This document shows, piece after piece, positions 12,745 to 19,148 of a DNA stretch of 64,000 nt (the first letter of the stretch is position 1; the number at the start of each line of letters is the position of its first letter). The stretch covers positions 496,001-560,000 of the forward strand of contig NZ_CP027806.1 in the NCBI RefSeq assembly GCF_003353065.1. Direction: 5' to 3'. The position numbers and the translations under genes are program-made. The notes under the pieces were generated by a model. The model did no database searches. It had not been told where the DNA came from and worked only from the letters and a program-made list of their open reading frames with translations. The stretch is from Cyclonatronum proteinivorum (GTDB lineage Bacteria > Bacteroidota > Rhodothermia > Balneolales > Cyclonatronaceae).

Positions 12745-14217
12745 ATGGGAAAGCCAACCGGATTTATGGAAATTGCGCGCAAAGACGCGCTCTCGAAAGA
12801 CCCCTCCGAGCGGGTGCAGGACTGGCGCGAGTTCGGTGTTCGTCTGCCCGACAGCGAACTGCAGCAGCAGGGGGCGCGCTGCATGGACTGCGGCATCCCG
12901 TTTTGCCAGACCGGCAGCACTACACCGAACGGCAAAGCGCTGGGCTGCCCCGTGTACAACCTCATCCCGGAGTGGAACGACCTCGTGTATCGCGGCAAGT
13001 GGCGGGAGGCCCTCAACCGCCTGCACAAAACCAATAATTTTCCGGAATTTACGGGTCGCGTTTGTCCTGCGCCCTGCGAGGGCAGCTGCGTGCTCGGGCT
13101 GATTGACAAGCCCGTAGCTATCAAAAGCATCGAGCAGGCCATCATCGACAAAGGCTTCGAGGAAGGCTGGGTCGTGCCGCAGCCGCCGGAAAGCCGCACC
13201 GGGAAGAAAATCGCGGTCGTTGGCTCGGGTCCTGCCGGACTCGCCGCTGCCGCGCAGCTCAACAAAGCGGGTCATCTCGTGACCGTGTTCGAACGCGCCG
13301 ACCGCATAGGCGGGCTGCTGATGTACGGCATCCCCAACATGAAGCTGGAGAAGGGCGTGGTTGAGCGCCGTGTGAAGCTGCTCGAAGCCGAAGGCATCAC
13401 TTTCGTAACCAACACCGAGGTTGGGAAGGATATCAGCGCGGAGGAAATCCGCGGGAAGTTCGACGCCGTGATTCTGGCCGGAGGCGCCGCCAAGCCGCGC
13501 GACCTCCCGATTGAAGGGCGTGATTCGGACGGCATTCATTTCGCGATGGATTACCTGCATGCCGACACGAAGAGCTTGTTAGACAGCGGTCATGCCGACG
13601 GCAATTACATCACCGCCAAAGACAAGCACGTGATCGTGATCGGCGGGGGTGATACCGGCACCGACTGTGTGGGTACCGCCATACGGCACGGCTGCGCGAC
13701 CGTCACACAGTTTGAAATCACGACGCGTCCGCCCGAAATGCGGGCTGACAGCAACCCCTGGCCCGAATGGCCGGGCGTGTACAAGCTCGACTACGGTCAG
13801 GAGGAAGCCCGCGCCAAATTCGGCGACGATCCGCGGCAGTATGAGGTCATGACCAAACAGTTTAAAGCCGACAAAAAAGGGCGGGTCAAAGAGCTGCACA
13901 CCGTGCAAATCCGCTGGGTGATCGGCGATGACGGCCGCATGAAGCCCGAAGAGGTCGAAGGCAGCGCACGTAGCTGGAAAGCCGACCTCGTGCTCCTCGC
14001 GATGGGCTTCACCGGCCCCGAAAACCCGCTCCCGGAAGCCTTCGGCGTCGAGCAGGACACCCGCAGCAACGTACGCGCCCGCTACGGCGACTTTGCGACC
14101 AACATCGAAGGCGTATTTGCAGCCGGCGACATGCGCCGCGGCCAAAGCCTCGTCGTCTGGGCCATCAACGAAGGCCGCGCAGTTGCAGAAGCCGTCAACA
14201 AATGGGTCATGCGGTAA
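12745..14217 (+). CDS. gltD: Glutamate synthase (NADPH) small subunit
   Basis: A 490-residue beta subunit that takes electrons from NAD(P)H through FAD and 4Fe-4S clusters to GltB. The N-terminal ~150 residues hold the cluster cysteines ([32 protein letters not shown]). Then come the FAD dinucleotide fold [13 protein letters not shown] and the NADPH fold [13 protein letters not shown]. The C-terminus [20 protein letters not shown] is intact. It is co-directional with gltB. A partial copy of its last exonic stretch lies ~500 bases further on (14706-14813), separated by palindromic repeats. Confidence 0.97.
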
Positions 14218-14269
14218 CGCGATGAGTTCCGGTTACACGGTTTGCCAGGTCAAACCGTATGGCCGCATT

Positions 14270-14296
14270 GTAGGGACGCACCCTTGTGGTCGCTCC
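14270..14296. repeat. REP-like palindrome
   Basis: Hairpin sequence GTAGGGACGCACCCTTGTGG continuing TCGCTCC, one of six copies in the window. It lies 53 bases after the gltD stop codon. Similar GC-rich intergenic palindromes are widespread in bacteria and are often tied to REP-associated transposases; none of those is in this window. Confidence 0.75.
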
Positions 14297-14381
14297 ACGA
14301 AACCCGAGACCACCACGGAAACCGGATTTGAAAGAAGCAGGGCACAAACGACGCCTGCTGTTGACCCCAAAATGCGCAATC

Positions 14382-14408
14382 GTAGGGGCGCACCCTCGTG
14401 GTCGCCCC
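14382..14408. repeat. REP-like palindrome
   Basis: Second copy downstream of gltD, with stem GGGGCG/CGCCCC and loop CTCGT. It shares the following CCACGAA block with the copy at 14270, so the two flanks are also related. Confidence 0.75.
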
Positions 14409-14493
14409 ACGAAGTCCGGAACAACAACGGAATCCCGGATCGTCGGCCAAAAGGTAGATATACAGCAAACCAGCGCGTCCTGTAGGGACGCCA

Positions 14494-14653
14494 TGTGGGT
14501 AGAAACGAACCGCCCCCCGAAATAACCGGAATGCCGCAGGCATGATGCGACCGTCGGAGCCCCCCGCATCGCGTTTATCCCAAACACCTGAAAACACATG
14601 GCGTACCTACGGCACGCTGATGTTTTTTCGCGGCGACCGGTTTTCTACCCACA
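14494..14653. repeat. Inverted-repeat segment downstream of gltD
   Basis: TGTGGGTAGAAA (14494-14505) and its exact inverse TTTCTACCCACA (14642-14653) bound ~136 bases without a credible gene. Further imperfect pairing extends inward (CGAACCG against CCGGTCG). This may be a decayed small mobile element. It is part of the 669-base gene-free stretch 14218-14886. Confidence 0.5.
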
Positions 14654-14705
14654 GAATGCCCCCTACAGGGCAGGATTAGTTTGTTAGTGGCATTGGGATC
14701 TCTCA

Positions 14706-14813
14706 GAAGCCCCCGGCGTCGAGCAGGACACCCGCAGACAAAGCCTCGTCGTCTGGGTCATCCACGAAGGCTGGGCAGTCGCAGAAGCCGTGGACAAGTG
14801 GGTCATGCGGTGA
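14706..14813 (+). pseudogene. Remnant copy of the gltD 3' end
   Basis: Reads EAPGVEQDTR then RQSLVVWVIHEGWAVAEAVDKW and VMR plus stop, matching the last 60 residues of gltD with a net in-frame loss of 25 codons between QDTR and QSLVV. Stretches of 19-22 bases are identical, and the 3' part differs at about one base in six. It has no start and no upstream coding sequence. It is evidence of a duplication or of displacement of the gltD end by inserted DNA. Confidence 0.85.
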
Positions 14814-14886
14814 TTTTGTTAAGTATGATTGCGGGAAAGTGGTTAGTTATATTTCAAAAAATAAATCACTAAAATCAACTTACATT

Positions 14887-15690
14887 ATGAATACTTACCT
14901 TTTTGCATGGAATCCCACAAAATGGTCGTGGACTGACCTGGCCCAGAATATTGAGAGTCTTAACCAGACCGGACGCGTTATTCAAAAATGGAGCTGCGTC
15001 AGTCATAAACAGGTTCGACTTGGTGACCGTGCATTTCTCGTTCGGCTTGGTACGGAGCCAAAAGGGATCATGGGTTCAGGCACCATAATCTCGGAGGCTT
15101 TTTTATCAGAGCACTGGAGCGGCGAAGATAAACTTGTGCACAGGGTTTTTATAGAGTTTGATACCCTACTCAATCCCATGAAGGAACCAATTTTAAGCCT
15201 GGAAGCTCTTGATATTGGAAAACTTTCAAGGCAGGTTTGGACCCCGCAAGCATCCGGTATTTCCATTAAACCAGACGTTACGAATGAACTTGAGGCTATT
15301 TGGTTTAATTTTTTAAATGATCGTGAACCTGAAGAAACCATAGCCGACGATGCTGCATCGGACAGCTATTTTGAAGGTGCAACAAGGGCAGTTATAAGTA
15401 CAAACCGTGAACGTAACCCACACGCAAGAGCTGCATGCTTAAGGCACTATGGATATAAATGTATCGTGTGTGAATTTGATTTCGAAAAAGTTTATGGCGA
15501 AGCTGGCCGTGAATTTATTCATGTTCATCATTTGAGCGAGGTGGCAAATAAAAAGGGTGTTTATAAAATCGACCCTATCGAAGACCTTCGCCCGGTTTGC
15601 CCTAACTGCCATTCCATCATTCACCGAAGAAAACCCGCATATTCCATTGCAGAAATGAAAGACATGATACAGGGCAATAGTTTTAAGTGA
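14887..15690 (+). CDS. EVE-HNH protein, probable modification-dependent (type IV) endonuclease
   Basis: A 267-residue two-domain protein. Residues ~1-140 look like an EVE/PUA-like fold (YLFAWNPTKWSW, then a long beta-rich stretch), which in related enzymes flips and reads modified cytosine. The C-terminal ~100 residues form an HNH nuclease with Cys192/Cys195, HVHH at 212-215, Cys238/Cys241 and His242/His246. Such fusions act as modification-dependent restriction enzymes against DNA of phages with altered bases. No methylase is nearby, as expected for a solitary type IV enzyme. The start at 14887 is preferred over 14839 because YLFAWNP is at the domain boundary. The gene is AT-richer than gltD and lies between short direct repeats, so recent acquisition is likely. 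Confidence 0.8.
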   Translation: MNTYLFAWNPTKWSWTDLAQNIESLNQTGRVIQKWSCVSHKQVRLGDRAFLVRLGTEPKGIMGSGTIISEAFLSEHWSGEDKLVHRVFIEFDTLLNPMKEPILSLEALDIGKLSRQVWTPQASGISIKPDVTNELEAIWFNFLNDREPEETIADDAASDSYFEGATRAVISTNRERNPHARAACLRHYGYKCIVCEFDFEKVYGEAGREFIHVHHLSEVANKKGVYKIDPIEDLRPVCPNCHSIIHRRKPAYSIAEMKDMIQGNSFK

Positions 15691-15791
15691 AAACGGGAGA
15701 TTTCAGTTTGGGAAAAACTGCCCCTACAGGGCAGGATTTGTCAATTGAATGGAATGGGAAAGCGTAAAGAGCCAAATCGTATGGGCCCATC

Positions 15792-15818
15792 GTAGGGGCG
15801 AACCCTTGTGGTCGCCCC
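15792..15818. repeat. REP-like palindrome
   Basis: Copy with stem GGGGCG/CGCCCC and loop CTTGT, followed by ATATCGTCGCCCCACGAAAC, in which the right half of the palindrome flank appears twice. It lies between the EVE-HNH gene and the nlpC-type gene, whose 3' end faces it. Confidence 0.75.
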
Positions 15819-15873
15819 ATATCGTCGCCCCACGAAACCCCAAACCACCCCAGAACCCGAACCCCACCAATAA

Positions 15874-16341
15874 TCACAAAACCCGGCGGGCCACGGTGAA
15901 GCGTTGTTGCCAGTAGGCTTGATTGAGCTCATCGATAATGACCCCCTGCGAAGTCGAAGCGTGCATGAAGCGCCCGCCGCTGAGCACAATGCCTACGTGC
16001 CGGGTGTTGCGTCCCGTCTGAAAAAAAACGAGATCGCCCACCCGCAGCTGTTGCGGGCGAATACGTGTGCCGTGCCGCATTTGCTGATCGGTCGTGCGCG
16101 GGATCTCAACTCCGAATCCGTTACGGAAAACCAGCATCACAAACGCGGAGCAGTCCACGCCTTGCTGCGTAATTCCGCCCAGCCGGTACGGCGTACCCCG
16201 CCATTGCTGATATTGCTGCATCAGGCGCTGTTCAACCTGACGACTGTCAGACCGGCTGCCCGAAGAACTCCCGCATCCACCCAAAAAAAGAGACAGGCCG
16301 AACAGCGACAGCAGCAGCAAAGGCAGGGAGTTGCTTTTCAT
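15874..16341 (-). CDS. NlpC/P60 family lipoprotein, peptidoglycan endopeptidase
   Basis: A 155-residue lipoprotein. The signal peptide ends in the lipobox LGGC with lipidated Cys23. The NlpC/P60 cysteine peptidase domain (~45-155) has catalytic Cys64 (GVDCSAFV), His115 (TRHVGIV) and a third residue His127 (FMHAST). It resembles Spr/MepS and NlpC enzymes, which cut peptide cross-links or stem peptides in the cell wall. It lies 18 bases downstream of metF on the same strand and is probably co-transcribed, although no functional link is known. Confidence 0.92.
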   Translation of the reverse strand: MKSNSLPLLLLSLFGLSLFLGGCGSSSGSRSDSRQVEQRLMQQYQQWRGTPYRLGGITQQGVDCSAFVMLVFRNGFGVEIPRTTDQQMRHGTRIRPQQLRVGDLVFFQTGRNTRHVGIVLSGGRFMHASTSQGVIIDELNQAYWQQRFTVARRVL

Positions 16342-16359
16342 GGCGGATTCAGATTTATA

Positions 16360-17328
16360 TCACACAGCGCGGGATTTGAGCCCGGTTTTCAGGTGGTCGA
16401 GCACATCAATTACGGCGCTTGGATTGGCCATTACGTAGAAGTGCAGGCCCTGAACGCCGTGATTAAGCAGCTCCTGACATTGCTGCACGCCCCATTCAAT
16501 GCCGATATCCCGGGCGCGATCGGGCTTGAGGGAGATCTCATGCGAAAGCGGCTCCGGGATGTTCAGGTGAAACGAGCGCGGCAACGTCGTGAGCTGACGG
16601 TAGCTCGTGATCAGCTTCAGACCCGGAATAATCGGCACGGTGATACCCGCTTCGCGGCATTTTGCTTCAAAGTCGAAGAATTTCTGATTATCGAAAAACA
16701 TCTGCGTCACGATGTAATCCGCGCCGGCTTCGACTTTCTCTTTCAGGCGCAGGATATCCCAGTTCAGGTTGGGGGCTTCGAAGTGTTTTTCAGGATAGCC
16801 CCCTACGCCTACGCAGAAATTGGTTTTGTCGGCTTCCATGAGTTGCTCGAGGTAAAGACCTCGGTTCATACGCTTCACCTGCCGCACGAGATCTACGGCG
16901 TATTCATTGATGGTGCGGTCGGCATTGTAGGGTTTCGGCGCCCCGTGATCGTCCCCGCGGATGGCCAGCACATTCTGAATCCCGAGGAAGTTCAGCTCGA
17001 TCAGCGCATCTTCGGTTTCCTCCCGCGTGAAGCCCTTGCACAGGATGTGCGGCACCGGCTCCACATTGTAGCGGTGCTTGATGGCCGCACAAAGCCCGAT
17101 CGTGCCCGGACGCTTCCGCCGGATGTGCCTGCGGATGTTACCGTTATCGAGTTCTTCGTAGTAGGCTTCGGCTGCGTGCGCGGTCACATCAATAAACGGC
17201 GGCCGGTAGGGCATTACCTGATCAAGCGCTTCAAAAATACTGTTGATGGATTTGCCCCGCTTGGGCGGAATAATTTCAAAGGAAATGAGCGGCTCGGAGC
17301 TCTGTGCATAAAAATCGGTAACTTTCAT
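16360..17328 (-). CDS. metF: 5,10-methylenetetrahydrofolate reductase
   Basis: A 322-residue FAD enzyme that makes 5-methyltetrahydrofolate, the methyl donor for MetH. The barrel shows the catalytic Glu18 (SFEIIPPKRG), IDVTAHAAEAYYEE, the NVLAIRGDDHG loop and the C-terminal LHFYVMANPSAVIDVLDHL. The frame is open from 17391, but the ATG at 17328 gives the family's normal start MKVTDFYAQ. A small hairpin-forming sequence (GCTCC-TTAG-GGAGC with flanking TTAGG/CCTAA, ~17362-17398) lies in the leader region. nlpC follows directly. Confidence 0.96.
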   Translation of the reverse strand: MKVTDFYAQSSEPLISFEIIPPKRGKSINSIFEALDQVMPYRPPFIDVTAHAAEAYYEELDNGNIRRHIRRKRPGTIGLCAAIKHRYNVEPVPHILCKGFTREETEDALIELNFLGIQNVLAIRGDDHGAPKPYNADRTINEYAVDLVRQVKRMNRGLYLEQLMEADKTNFCVGVGGYPEKHFEAPNLNWDILRLKEKVEAGADYIVTQMFFDNQKFFDFEAKCREAGITVPIIPGLKLITSYRQLTTLPRSFHLNIPEPLSHEISLKPDRARDIGIEWGVQQCQELLNHGVQGLHFYVMANPSAVIDVLDHLKTGLKSRAV

Positions 17329-17561: not shown

Positions 17562-17783
17562 ATGGGATTTCGTGAAGTCGGAGACGCTATCAGAAGGCAG
17601 CGTGTATTGCTGGGCGTTACGCAGCCAGACCTTGCGGAAATTGCAGGGGTGAGTGTGAACACGCTCTGCAATATCGAACGTGGTCAGGCCAACCCCACCT
17701 TAAAGGTGCTCCTTCAGCTTGCGGAAGTACTGGGGCTTGAACTCAAACTCATGATTAAAAGCCCGGGTGAGGTGACAAAATGA
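17562..17783 (+). CDS. hipB: HipB-type HTH antitoxin/repressor
   Basis: A 73-residue Cro/CI-type helix-turn-helix protein; the reader helix region is QPDLAEIAGVSVNTLCNIER, followed by GQANPTLKVLLQLAEVLGLE, a classic HipB-like pattern. It is expected to bind the operator in front of the operon and to form a complex with the kinase. It overlaps the next gene by 4 bases (GTGA/ATGA type overlap at 17780-17783), so translation is coupled. Confidence 0.85.
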   Translation: MGFREVGDAIRRQRVLLGVTQPDLAEIAGVSVNTLCNIERGQANPTLKVLLQLAEVLGLELKLMIKSPGEVTK

Positions 17784-18139
17784 GCAAAATACAGTCGGCT
17801 GTTGTGTACTGGAATGGAGAAGCTGCAGGGCTTTTGACCCGCCATCATCGCAGGCATTATGTTTTCGAGTATTTTGAAGAATGGTTCACAAACCCCGAAA
17901 AACCTGCCGTGAGCCTGACCCTGCCCAAGACAAAGCGAAGGTGGGAGGCGGATCATCTTTTCCCGTTTTTCTTCAATATGCTCTCTGAGGGATTTAACAA
18001 ACGCGTGCAGTGCCGTTTTTTCAGGATTGACGAGAACGATTTCTTCACGCACCTTGTCAAAACCGCGGGCTATGATACCGCAGGTGCAGTGACCATAAGA
18101 CCGGCAGATGAATCGGAGCAATTATATGCCGATGACTGA
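17780..18139 (+). CDS. hipS: HipS-like protein, HipA N-terminal subdomain
   Basis: A 119-residue stand-alone version of the N-terminal subdomain of HipA kinases (VYWNGEAAGLLTRHHRRHYV near the start, then PAVSLTLPK and LFPFFFNMLSEG). In two-gene hipBA systems this part is fused to the kinase; in tripartite HipBST systems it is a separate small protein that acts as antitoxin. It is translationally coupled to hipB and overlaps hipT by ~10-30 bases, depending on the hipT start. Confidence 0.8.
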   Translation: MSKIQSAVVYWNGEAAGLLTRHHRRHYVFEYFEEWFTNPEKPAVSLTLPKTKRRWEADHLFPFFFNMLSEGFNKRVQCRFFRIDENDFFTHLVKTAGYDTAGAVTIRPADESEQLYADD

Positions 18140-19148
18140 TATCCGATCCTGCCCCTGTACGCTTAAGCCCGGCTTTGATACTTTTAGCCCTAAAGCGCTG
18201 AAAAAAATGTTTGGCGGTGTGAAAGTCAGTCATATGCTTCCGGACAACTTTCCATCAAGAGCGGCGCTCGTGCAGCAAAGTCAAAAGTTCACCCTTAGAA
18301 AAATTTCTCTTTCCGGCGTGCAGCCTAAGTTTTCGGTTGATCGCCTGGGGCAGGAGATTGTTCTGACTTCTGGTTCAGCGTCCGGAAAGTTTATGCTTAA
18401 ACCCGCTCCCTTTGATTTGTCTCATGCTTCTGATGTTCCTGCCAATGAACATCTCACCATGCAAATTGCCGGACAGGTTTATGGAATCAATACCGCTGAG
18501 AATGCCCTGGTTTTTTTTCGAAATGGTGAGGCAGCATATCTAACCAAAAGGTTTGATTATGGGAAGGACGATCAGAAATATCCAGTTGAAGATTTTGCAA
18601 GCCTTGCCGGCAAGACTTCCGAAACTGCGGGGCAAGACTTCAAATATAGCGGGAGCTATGAAGATGCCGCAGATCTGATTTATCAATTTGTACCTGCGGC
18701 TAAAATAGAAATTGAAAAGTTTTTCAAACTTATCGTGTTCAATTTCCTTGCTTCCAATGGAGATGCACATCTCAAAAACTTTTCCATTATCGGAAATTTA
18801 TCAGGTCATTATCAGCTTGCACCGGCATACGACCTTACCAACACCAGTATTCACGTATCAAACCCTGAACTGGCACTTTTTGACGGATTGTTCAAGGATA
18901 ACTTTGAAACGGAAAGCTTTGAAGCCAACGGCTTTCGCGCGTATGACGATTTCTTAACTTTTGGGCTGAGGATCGGTATTCAGGAAAAGCGGGTAAAAAG
19001 AATGCTTGACTTTTACAGGCTTGACCGACCCGCTGTTTATCAGCTGATCGAAAACAGTTTCTTGGATAATGAGCTGAAATTACAGTATGCAGCGCACTGG
19101 AAGAAGCGGCTGAAGGCGCTCAACTATTCGTATATGAAGCACATTTGA
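18108..19148 (+). CDS. hipT: HipT-like serine/threonine kinase toxin
   Basis: A 346-residue HipA-fold kinase without the N-terminal subdomain. It contains a CPCTLKP motif near the start, a glycine-rich loop KISLSGVQPK with Ser67 and Ser69 (HipT toxins carry autophosphorylated Ser residues in this loop), ATP-contacting Lys98 (KFMLKP), PANEH, TKRFD, catalytic Asp219 in SNGDAHLKN and Mg-binding Asp242 in APAYDL. All key residues are present, so it is probably active. Related toxins phosphorylate aminoacyl-tRNA synthetases. ATGs at 18126 or 18132 are possible alternative starts, giving less overlap with hipS. The gene is AT-richer than its neighbours. Confidence 0.85.
   Translation: MNRSNYMPMTDIRSCPCTLKPGFDTFSPKALKKMFGGVKVSHMLPDNFPSRAALVQQSQKFTLRKISLSGVQPKFSVDRLGQEIVLTSGSASGKFMLKPAPFDLSHASDVPANEHLTMQIAGQVYGINTAENALVFFRNGEAAYLTKRFDYGKDDQKYPVEDFASLAGKTSETAGQDFKYSGSYEDAADLIYQFVPAAKIEIEKFFKLIVFNFLASNGDAHLKNFSIIGNLSGHYQLAPAYDLTNTSIHVSNPELALFDGLFKDNFETESFEANGFRAYDDFLTFGLRIGIQEKRVKRMLDFYRLDRPAVYQLIENSFLDNELKLQYAAHWKKRLKALNYSYMKHI

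Follow-up and report, generated by a model that had tools for sequence, protein, structure and literature searches.

The EVE-HNH nuclease gene behind gltD in Cyclonatronum proteinivorum is probably a former integron cassette gene that settled at this site and lost its attC; the gltD tail beside it appears to be a local duplicate, and the flanking repeats are REPs. The original prediction had taken these repeats and the tail as marks of an integrating element inserted at a gene 3' end. Reading repeats and a gene tail in this way is tempting but wrong, and the analysis corrects it. Defense genes can reside in integrons, and integron cassettes are a real carrier for EVE-HNH defense genes.

The gltD-nlpC interval and the EVE-HNH protein

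The window is the 64,000-nt stretch of C. proteinivorum DNA (NZ_CP027806.1) that was analyzed, and all of the reported pieces were found downstream of an intact gltD gene.

12745..14217, plus strand: intact gltD, glutamate synthase small subunit, 490 aa, with Pfam Pyr_redox_2 and Fer4_20 domains
14251..14436, plus strand: dispersed GTAGGGRCGCACCCTYGTGGTCGC repeat, present twice here and a third time at 15773-15859
14475..14680, plus strand: long palindromic REP-like element with inverted arms containing TGTGGGTAGAAA and the terminal hairpin TGCCCCTACAGGGCA(GG)
14660..14680, plus strand: 5' copy of the 21-nt repeat, which is the REP terminal hairpin
14700..14813, plus strand: pseudogene of the gltD 3' end, a putative decayed duplicate that has lost a net 25 codons internally
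14815..14886, plus strand: AT-rich leader, 72 nt, 25% G+C, with a GTTAAGT core-like heptamer at 14818-14824
14887..15690, plus strand: homolog of EVE-HNH modification-dependent nucleases, 267 aa, with its HNH and zinc residues retained
15719..15741, strandless: the REP terminal hairpin again (3' copy), standing alone where the EVE-HNH and nlpC genes converge and resembling a terminator on the minus strand
15874..16341, minus strand: nlpC/P60 gene, the first gene of a conserved nlpC-metF-DCC-glyS block

The predicted remnant of the gltD 3' end, with its net in-frame loss of 25 codons, is present 482 nt past the intact gene. It is followed, as had also been predicted, by an AT-rich EVE-HNH gene, which is an intact ORF starting at 14887 from ATG or at 14839 from GTG. 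The G+C content rises from 25% in the leader to 43% in the EVE-HNH gene, 53% in the window and 62% in gltD. An Rfam search of 14000-16400 gave no match, and no recombinase was found among the ORFs of the locus.

Pfam detects the HNH domain (PF01844) at 26.2 bits against a cut-off of 21.4. Its H-N-H and CxxC residues are intact (CIVC, HVHH and CPNCH) and are conserved in full-length relatives. The EVE domain scores 18.8 bits, which is under the Pfam cut-off of 23, and EVE matches were obtained for 11 of the 15 aligned family members. An AlphaFold model of the protein (mean pLDDT 75, about 90 for most of the EVE part) has the EVE structures 2eve and 2gbs and the VcaM4I structure 6yex among its top matches, and an N-terminal EVE (PUA-like) domain is assigned by fold despite the sub-threshold Pfam score. 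VcaM4I from Vibrio campbellii has the same arrangement of an N-terminal EVE domain followed by a C-terminal HNH domain (PMC7897488, PDB 6yex; Foldseek rank 2, E = 6.8e-05), but the two proteins are 11-12% identical with no sequence-level match, and the likeness is by fold alone. VcaM4I takes up a flipped 5mC or 5hmC base in its EVE pocket and cleaves with its HNH domain; a relative, TspA15I, shields E. coli from T4gt phage (PMC7897488). EVE-HNH enzymes are already in the literature, and the EVE-HNH type IV restriction enzymes of the EVE census have the same architecture and predicted role (PMC7641849). The fold and intact motifs make modification-dependent (type IV-like) restriction the likeliest role of the C. 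proteinivorum protein. In this role the EVE domain would flip a modified cytosine of incoming DNA to read it, leaving cleavage to the HNH domain.

Dispersed repeats and the displaced gltD tail

Near-identical repeats flank the gltD remnant and the EVE-HNH gene, as predicted. The copies (14660-14680 and 15721-15741) are identical at 20 of their 21 positions, which is far beyond chance, and they are two of many in the genome. A blastn search of 14450-14880 against the C. proteinivorum genome (4.29 Mb, one contig) returned 27 places, made up of the query itself, two gltD 3'-end segments that match the tail part, and fragments of the repeat element. Copies of the core TGTGGGTAGAAA number 15, compared to one for a reversed control. 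Thirteen other copies finish with TTTCTACCCACA-N3-TGCCCCTACAGGGCA or a close variant, the hairpin that forms most of the 21-mer. The REP-like element at 14475-14680 folds at -83.6 kcal/mol; the 5' 21-mer belongs to this nearly complete palindromic element and the 3' 21-mer is a lone hairpin. The GTAGGGRCGCACCCTYGTGGTCGC repeat was found at 12 places genome-wide with ≤2 mismatches, and its reversed control at none. Each flanking 21-mer is the hairpin that ends a dispersed palindromic element of the REP/REPIN type, a family with copies in at least a dozen unrelated places in the genome. Such ordinary dispersed hairpins cannot serve as evidence for att sites or a target duplication. The original prediction had itself named an ordinary REP at many unrelated sites as evidence against an inserted element. 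A tandem-duplication unit spanning both hairpins is not claimed because similarity outside the two 21-mers is marginal.

The tail reads LSEAPGVEQDTRRQSLVVWVIHEGWAVAEAVDKWVMR* in the gltD frame and ends in TGA. It consists of two blocks with 89% and 88% nucleotide identity to gltD 14029-14066 and 14136-14215, respectively. A three-way count with the gltD of a same-genus relative (G005) over 114 comparable sites gave 14 differences between the tail and its own gltD, 30 between the tail and G005, and 23 between the two gltD genes. Nine changes are private to the tail, 2 to the C. proteinivorum gltD and 18 to G005, and two states are common to the tail and G005 against the C. proteinivorum gltD. 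The tail-unique changes fall mostly at codon positions 1-2 and mainly change amino acids. None of the other gltD-bearing loci examined has a gltD tail. The simplest reading is that the tail is a local duplicate of the gltD 3' end made in the C. proteinivorum lineage and decaying without selection, because most of its states are common to the resident gltD and its private substitutions are mainly amino-acid-changing.

Within the reach of their contigs, the relatives examined from the genus and the family keep the nlpC-metF-DCC-glyS block, and among them only G005 also has gltD adjoining nlpC (L053). The 244-nt gltD-nlpC interval of G005 contains no tail, no EVE-HNH gene and no 21-mer, nor does it significantly resemble the 1,656-nt interval in C. 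proteinivorum. An empty site with a single repeat copy in a relative would have shown a mobile unit; this site has no copy at all. Another congener has after nlpC what we take, from reading the sequence, to be pdxJ-like and era-like genes. Farther into the block, a HipA-type gene consisting of two overlapping ORFs (Couple_hipA and HipA_C; 17780-19148) lies between metF and the DCC gene in C. proteinivorum, and the matching interval in G005 (L053:2988-3634) holds a PIN-toxin/small-antitoxin-like pair. The metF-DCC interval therefore looks like a toxin-antitoxin turnover site.

EVE-HNH relatives and integron cassettes

A scan of 84,980 species genomes identified 24 loci with relatives of the EVE-HNH protein. 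The full-length relatives are 44-57% identical and come from Bacteroidota, a Balneolales MAG and Desulfamplus. Of the 15 full-length relatives, 11 have ends of 8-9 bp that are complementary (GTT...ATG / ...AAC) and spaced as expected, most with P < 0.01 compared to shuffles. The end match of L074 is off the expected position, and there are no matched ends in the full-length L076, L081 and L083 or in the truncated relatives, although L081 sits among attC-like sites. These sites are arrayed on one strand in numbers well above the shuffled controls (14 vs 2.0 in L077, 14 vs 2.4 in L079, 8 vs 1.4 in L073, 6 vs 0 in L072 and 6 vs 0.6 in L080), with few on the opposite strand. In one Tenacibaculum genome, three copies of the gene share a 60-kb stretch immediately downstream of an IntI-like recombinase; a canonical integron integrase is encoded in the Desulfamplus genome. 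Neither the protein nor alignment A1 detected relatives among viral contigs, and phage records matched the HNH domain only. Plasmid matches were mostly HNH-only; three records reached at least 80% coverage, all at <40% identity. In Bacteroidota and Balneolota, as these relatives show, integron gene cassettes are the main vehicle of the EVE-HNH family.

The G005 copy carries cassette ends and is at a different locus, where its start abuts the G^TT of a cut PIN-toxin gene. The EVE-HNH cassette meets the start of this gene at the GTT after the antitoxin, and the first codons of the toxin break off (L054:80-1095). This arrangement, at one contig end, suggests to us an off-array insertion.

Most relatives are like integron gene cassettes in having one gene per cassette between attC-like sites; the window copy differs in lying outside any array and having no attC. 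No attC-like site is detectable near the gene, no integron integrase adjoins it, and the best match for complementary ends is 5 of 9 positions (P = 0.58). The GTTAAGT heptamer 4 nt after the tail stop fits the attC core consensus, a post hoc observation that is suggestive only, and no complementary end matches it downstream. A second core-like string, GTTAGTGGC at 14683, was dropped for want of a complementary end. In the tree, the window copy falls in a 12-row group with 10 rows labeled attC-associated (support 82/95), on a long branch (0.92) whose placement is weakly supported; clustering of the attC label around it is not significant compared to shuffles. With no attC remnant detectable at the window copy, only the relatives argue for its cassette past.

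Integron traces are present elsewhere in the C. proteinivorum genome. Two halves of an integron-like integrase are located at about 754.3 kb and 757.7 kb with a transposase gene between them, and past these halves are two attC-like sites with ends that pair up as those of a single cassette (GTTACCA / TGGTAAC). The cassette contains an Xre regulator and a C5-methyltransferase gene, the latter apparently truncated. This degraded platform (about 753-762 kb; L124:18003-20000, L125:1162-6624) is ~240 kb from the window copy at 510.9 kb. The broken integrase and attC-like sites indicate that the C. proteinivorum lineage once had an integron-like platform. The earlier statement that no integrase remains holds at the EVE-HNH locus, with a broken one elsewhere in the genome. 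A further integrase N-terminal fragment is found near the platform on the other strand, and six to seven tandem ~363-nt units stand beside a uvrB-like gene in the same genome (L124:14304-16951).

Origin of the EVE-HNH gene

Since its relatives are mostly in integron-type cassettes, the EVE-HNH gene is probably mobile by origin. Its mobility had been part of the original prediction, and this part stands insofar as the gene looks horizontally acquired and is absent from the gltD-nlpC site of the closest relative, G005; the repeat-bounded integrating unit does not. There is no element at the locus able to move itself now. We favor a sequence in which the cassette gene would have arrived behind gltD in the C. 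proteinivorum lineage and lost its attC site. Before or after these steps, the gltD 3' end would have been duplicated beside it and the copy would have decayed, and REP hairpins may have served as rearrangement endpoints.

A small integrating element at the gltD 3' end would account for the tail as the displaced gene end and for the 21-nt repeats as att sites or a target duplication, and both features exist, as does a G005 gltD-nlpC site without the EVE-HNH gene. An element that had displaced a gene tail would be found in the stretch from gltD to the tail. The EVE-HNH gene is beyond the tail, so this mechanism is not supported. The 21-mer is a REP hairpin at many sites instead of an att repeat, G005 offers no one-copy empty site, the tail matches the resident gltD with later decay, and the locus is without a recombinase. 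This account is already largely refuted and is very unlikely. The REP hairpins on both sides of the gene, together with five Y1 transposase (PF01797) matches in the genome, could instead point to a REP-associated or other transposase that moved the gene, with a REP copy on either side as the element end. The 3' hairpin stands alone, however, with the rest of the element missing, and REPs are so widespread in the genome that flanking copies are expected by proximity alone, which makes transposition of this type highly improbable.

Homologous import is unlikely, with more to be said for it. A gltD end, EVE-HNH gene and nlpC from a close relative would have recombined in and left a second gltD end, the EVE-HNH gene having been in the donor earlier. 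The 14 of 114 sites at which the tail departs from the resident gltD, the two states it has in common with the G005 gltD, and the start of AT-rich DNA right after the tail stop are consistent with this route. Most of the differences, however, are tail-unique and at codon positions 1-2, a pattern that decay after a duplication gives equally, and no donor genome was found.

The presumed former cassette gene may belong to a wider pattern, which we put forward tentatively and at somewhat less than an even chance. EVE-HNH would be recurrent defense cargo of little-recognized Bacteroidota and Balneolota integrons, whose integrases are without the IntI-specific segment and score below the canonical integron-integrase cut-off. 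Cassettes could move out of the arrays into ordinary chromosomal genes at G^TT sites and, having lost attC, be fixed there, and the window gene would be a defense cassette stranded in this way.

The large Bacteroidota attC arrays with integrases outside the canonical IntI definition are a lead in their own right. IntI-like integrases accompany the attC-like arrays (L126:1927-3114; L073, L077, L079, L080 and L072), and these integrases lack the segment at about 180-238 of TIGR02249 and score under its cut-off. Canonical integron criteria may overlook such arrays. The one complete integron that IntegronFinder 2.0 names for Bacteroidetes proper is in Salinibacter ruber M1 (PMC9024848), and the text of the EVE census makes no mention of integrons or cassettes (PMC7641849). 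The Tenacibaculum IntI-like integrase has the same orientation as the cassettes.
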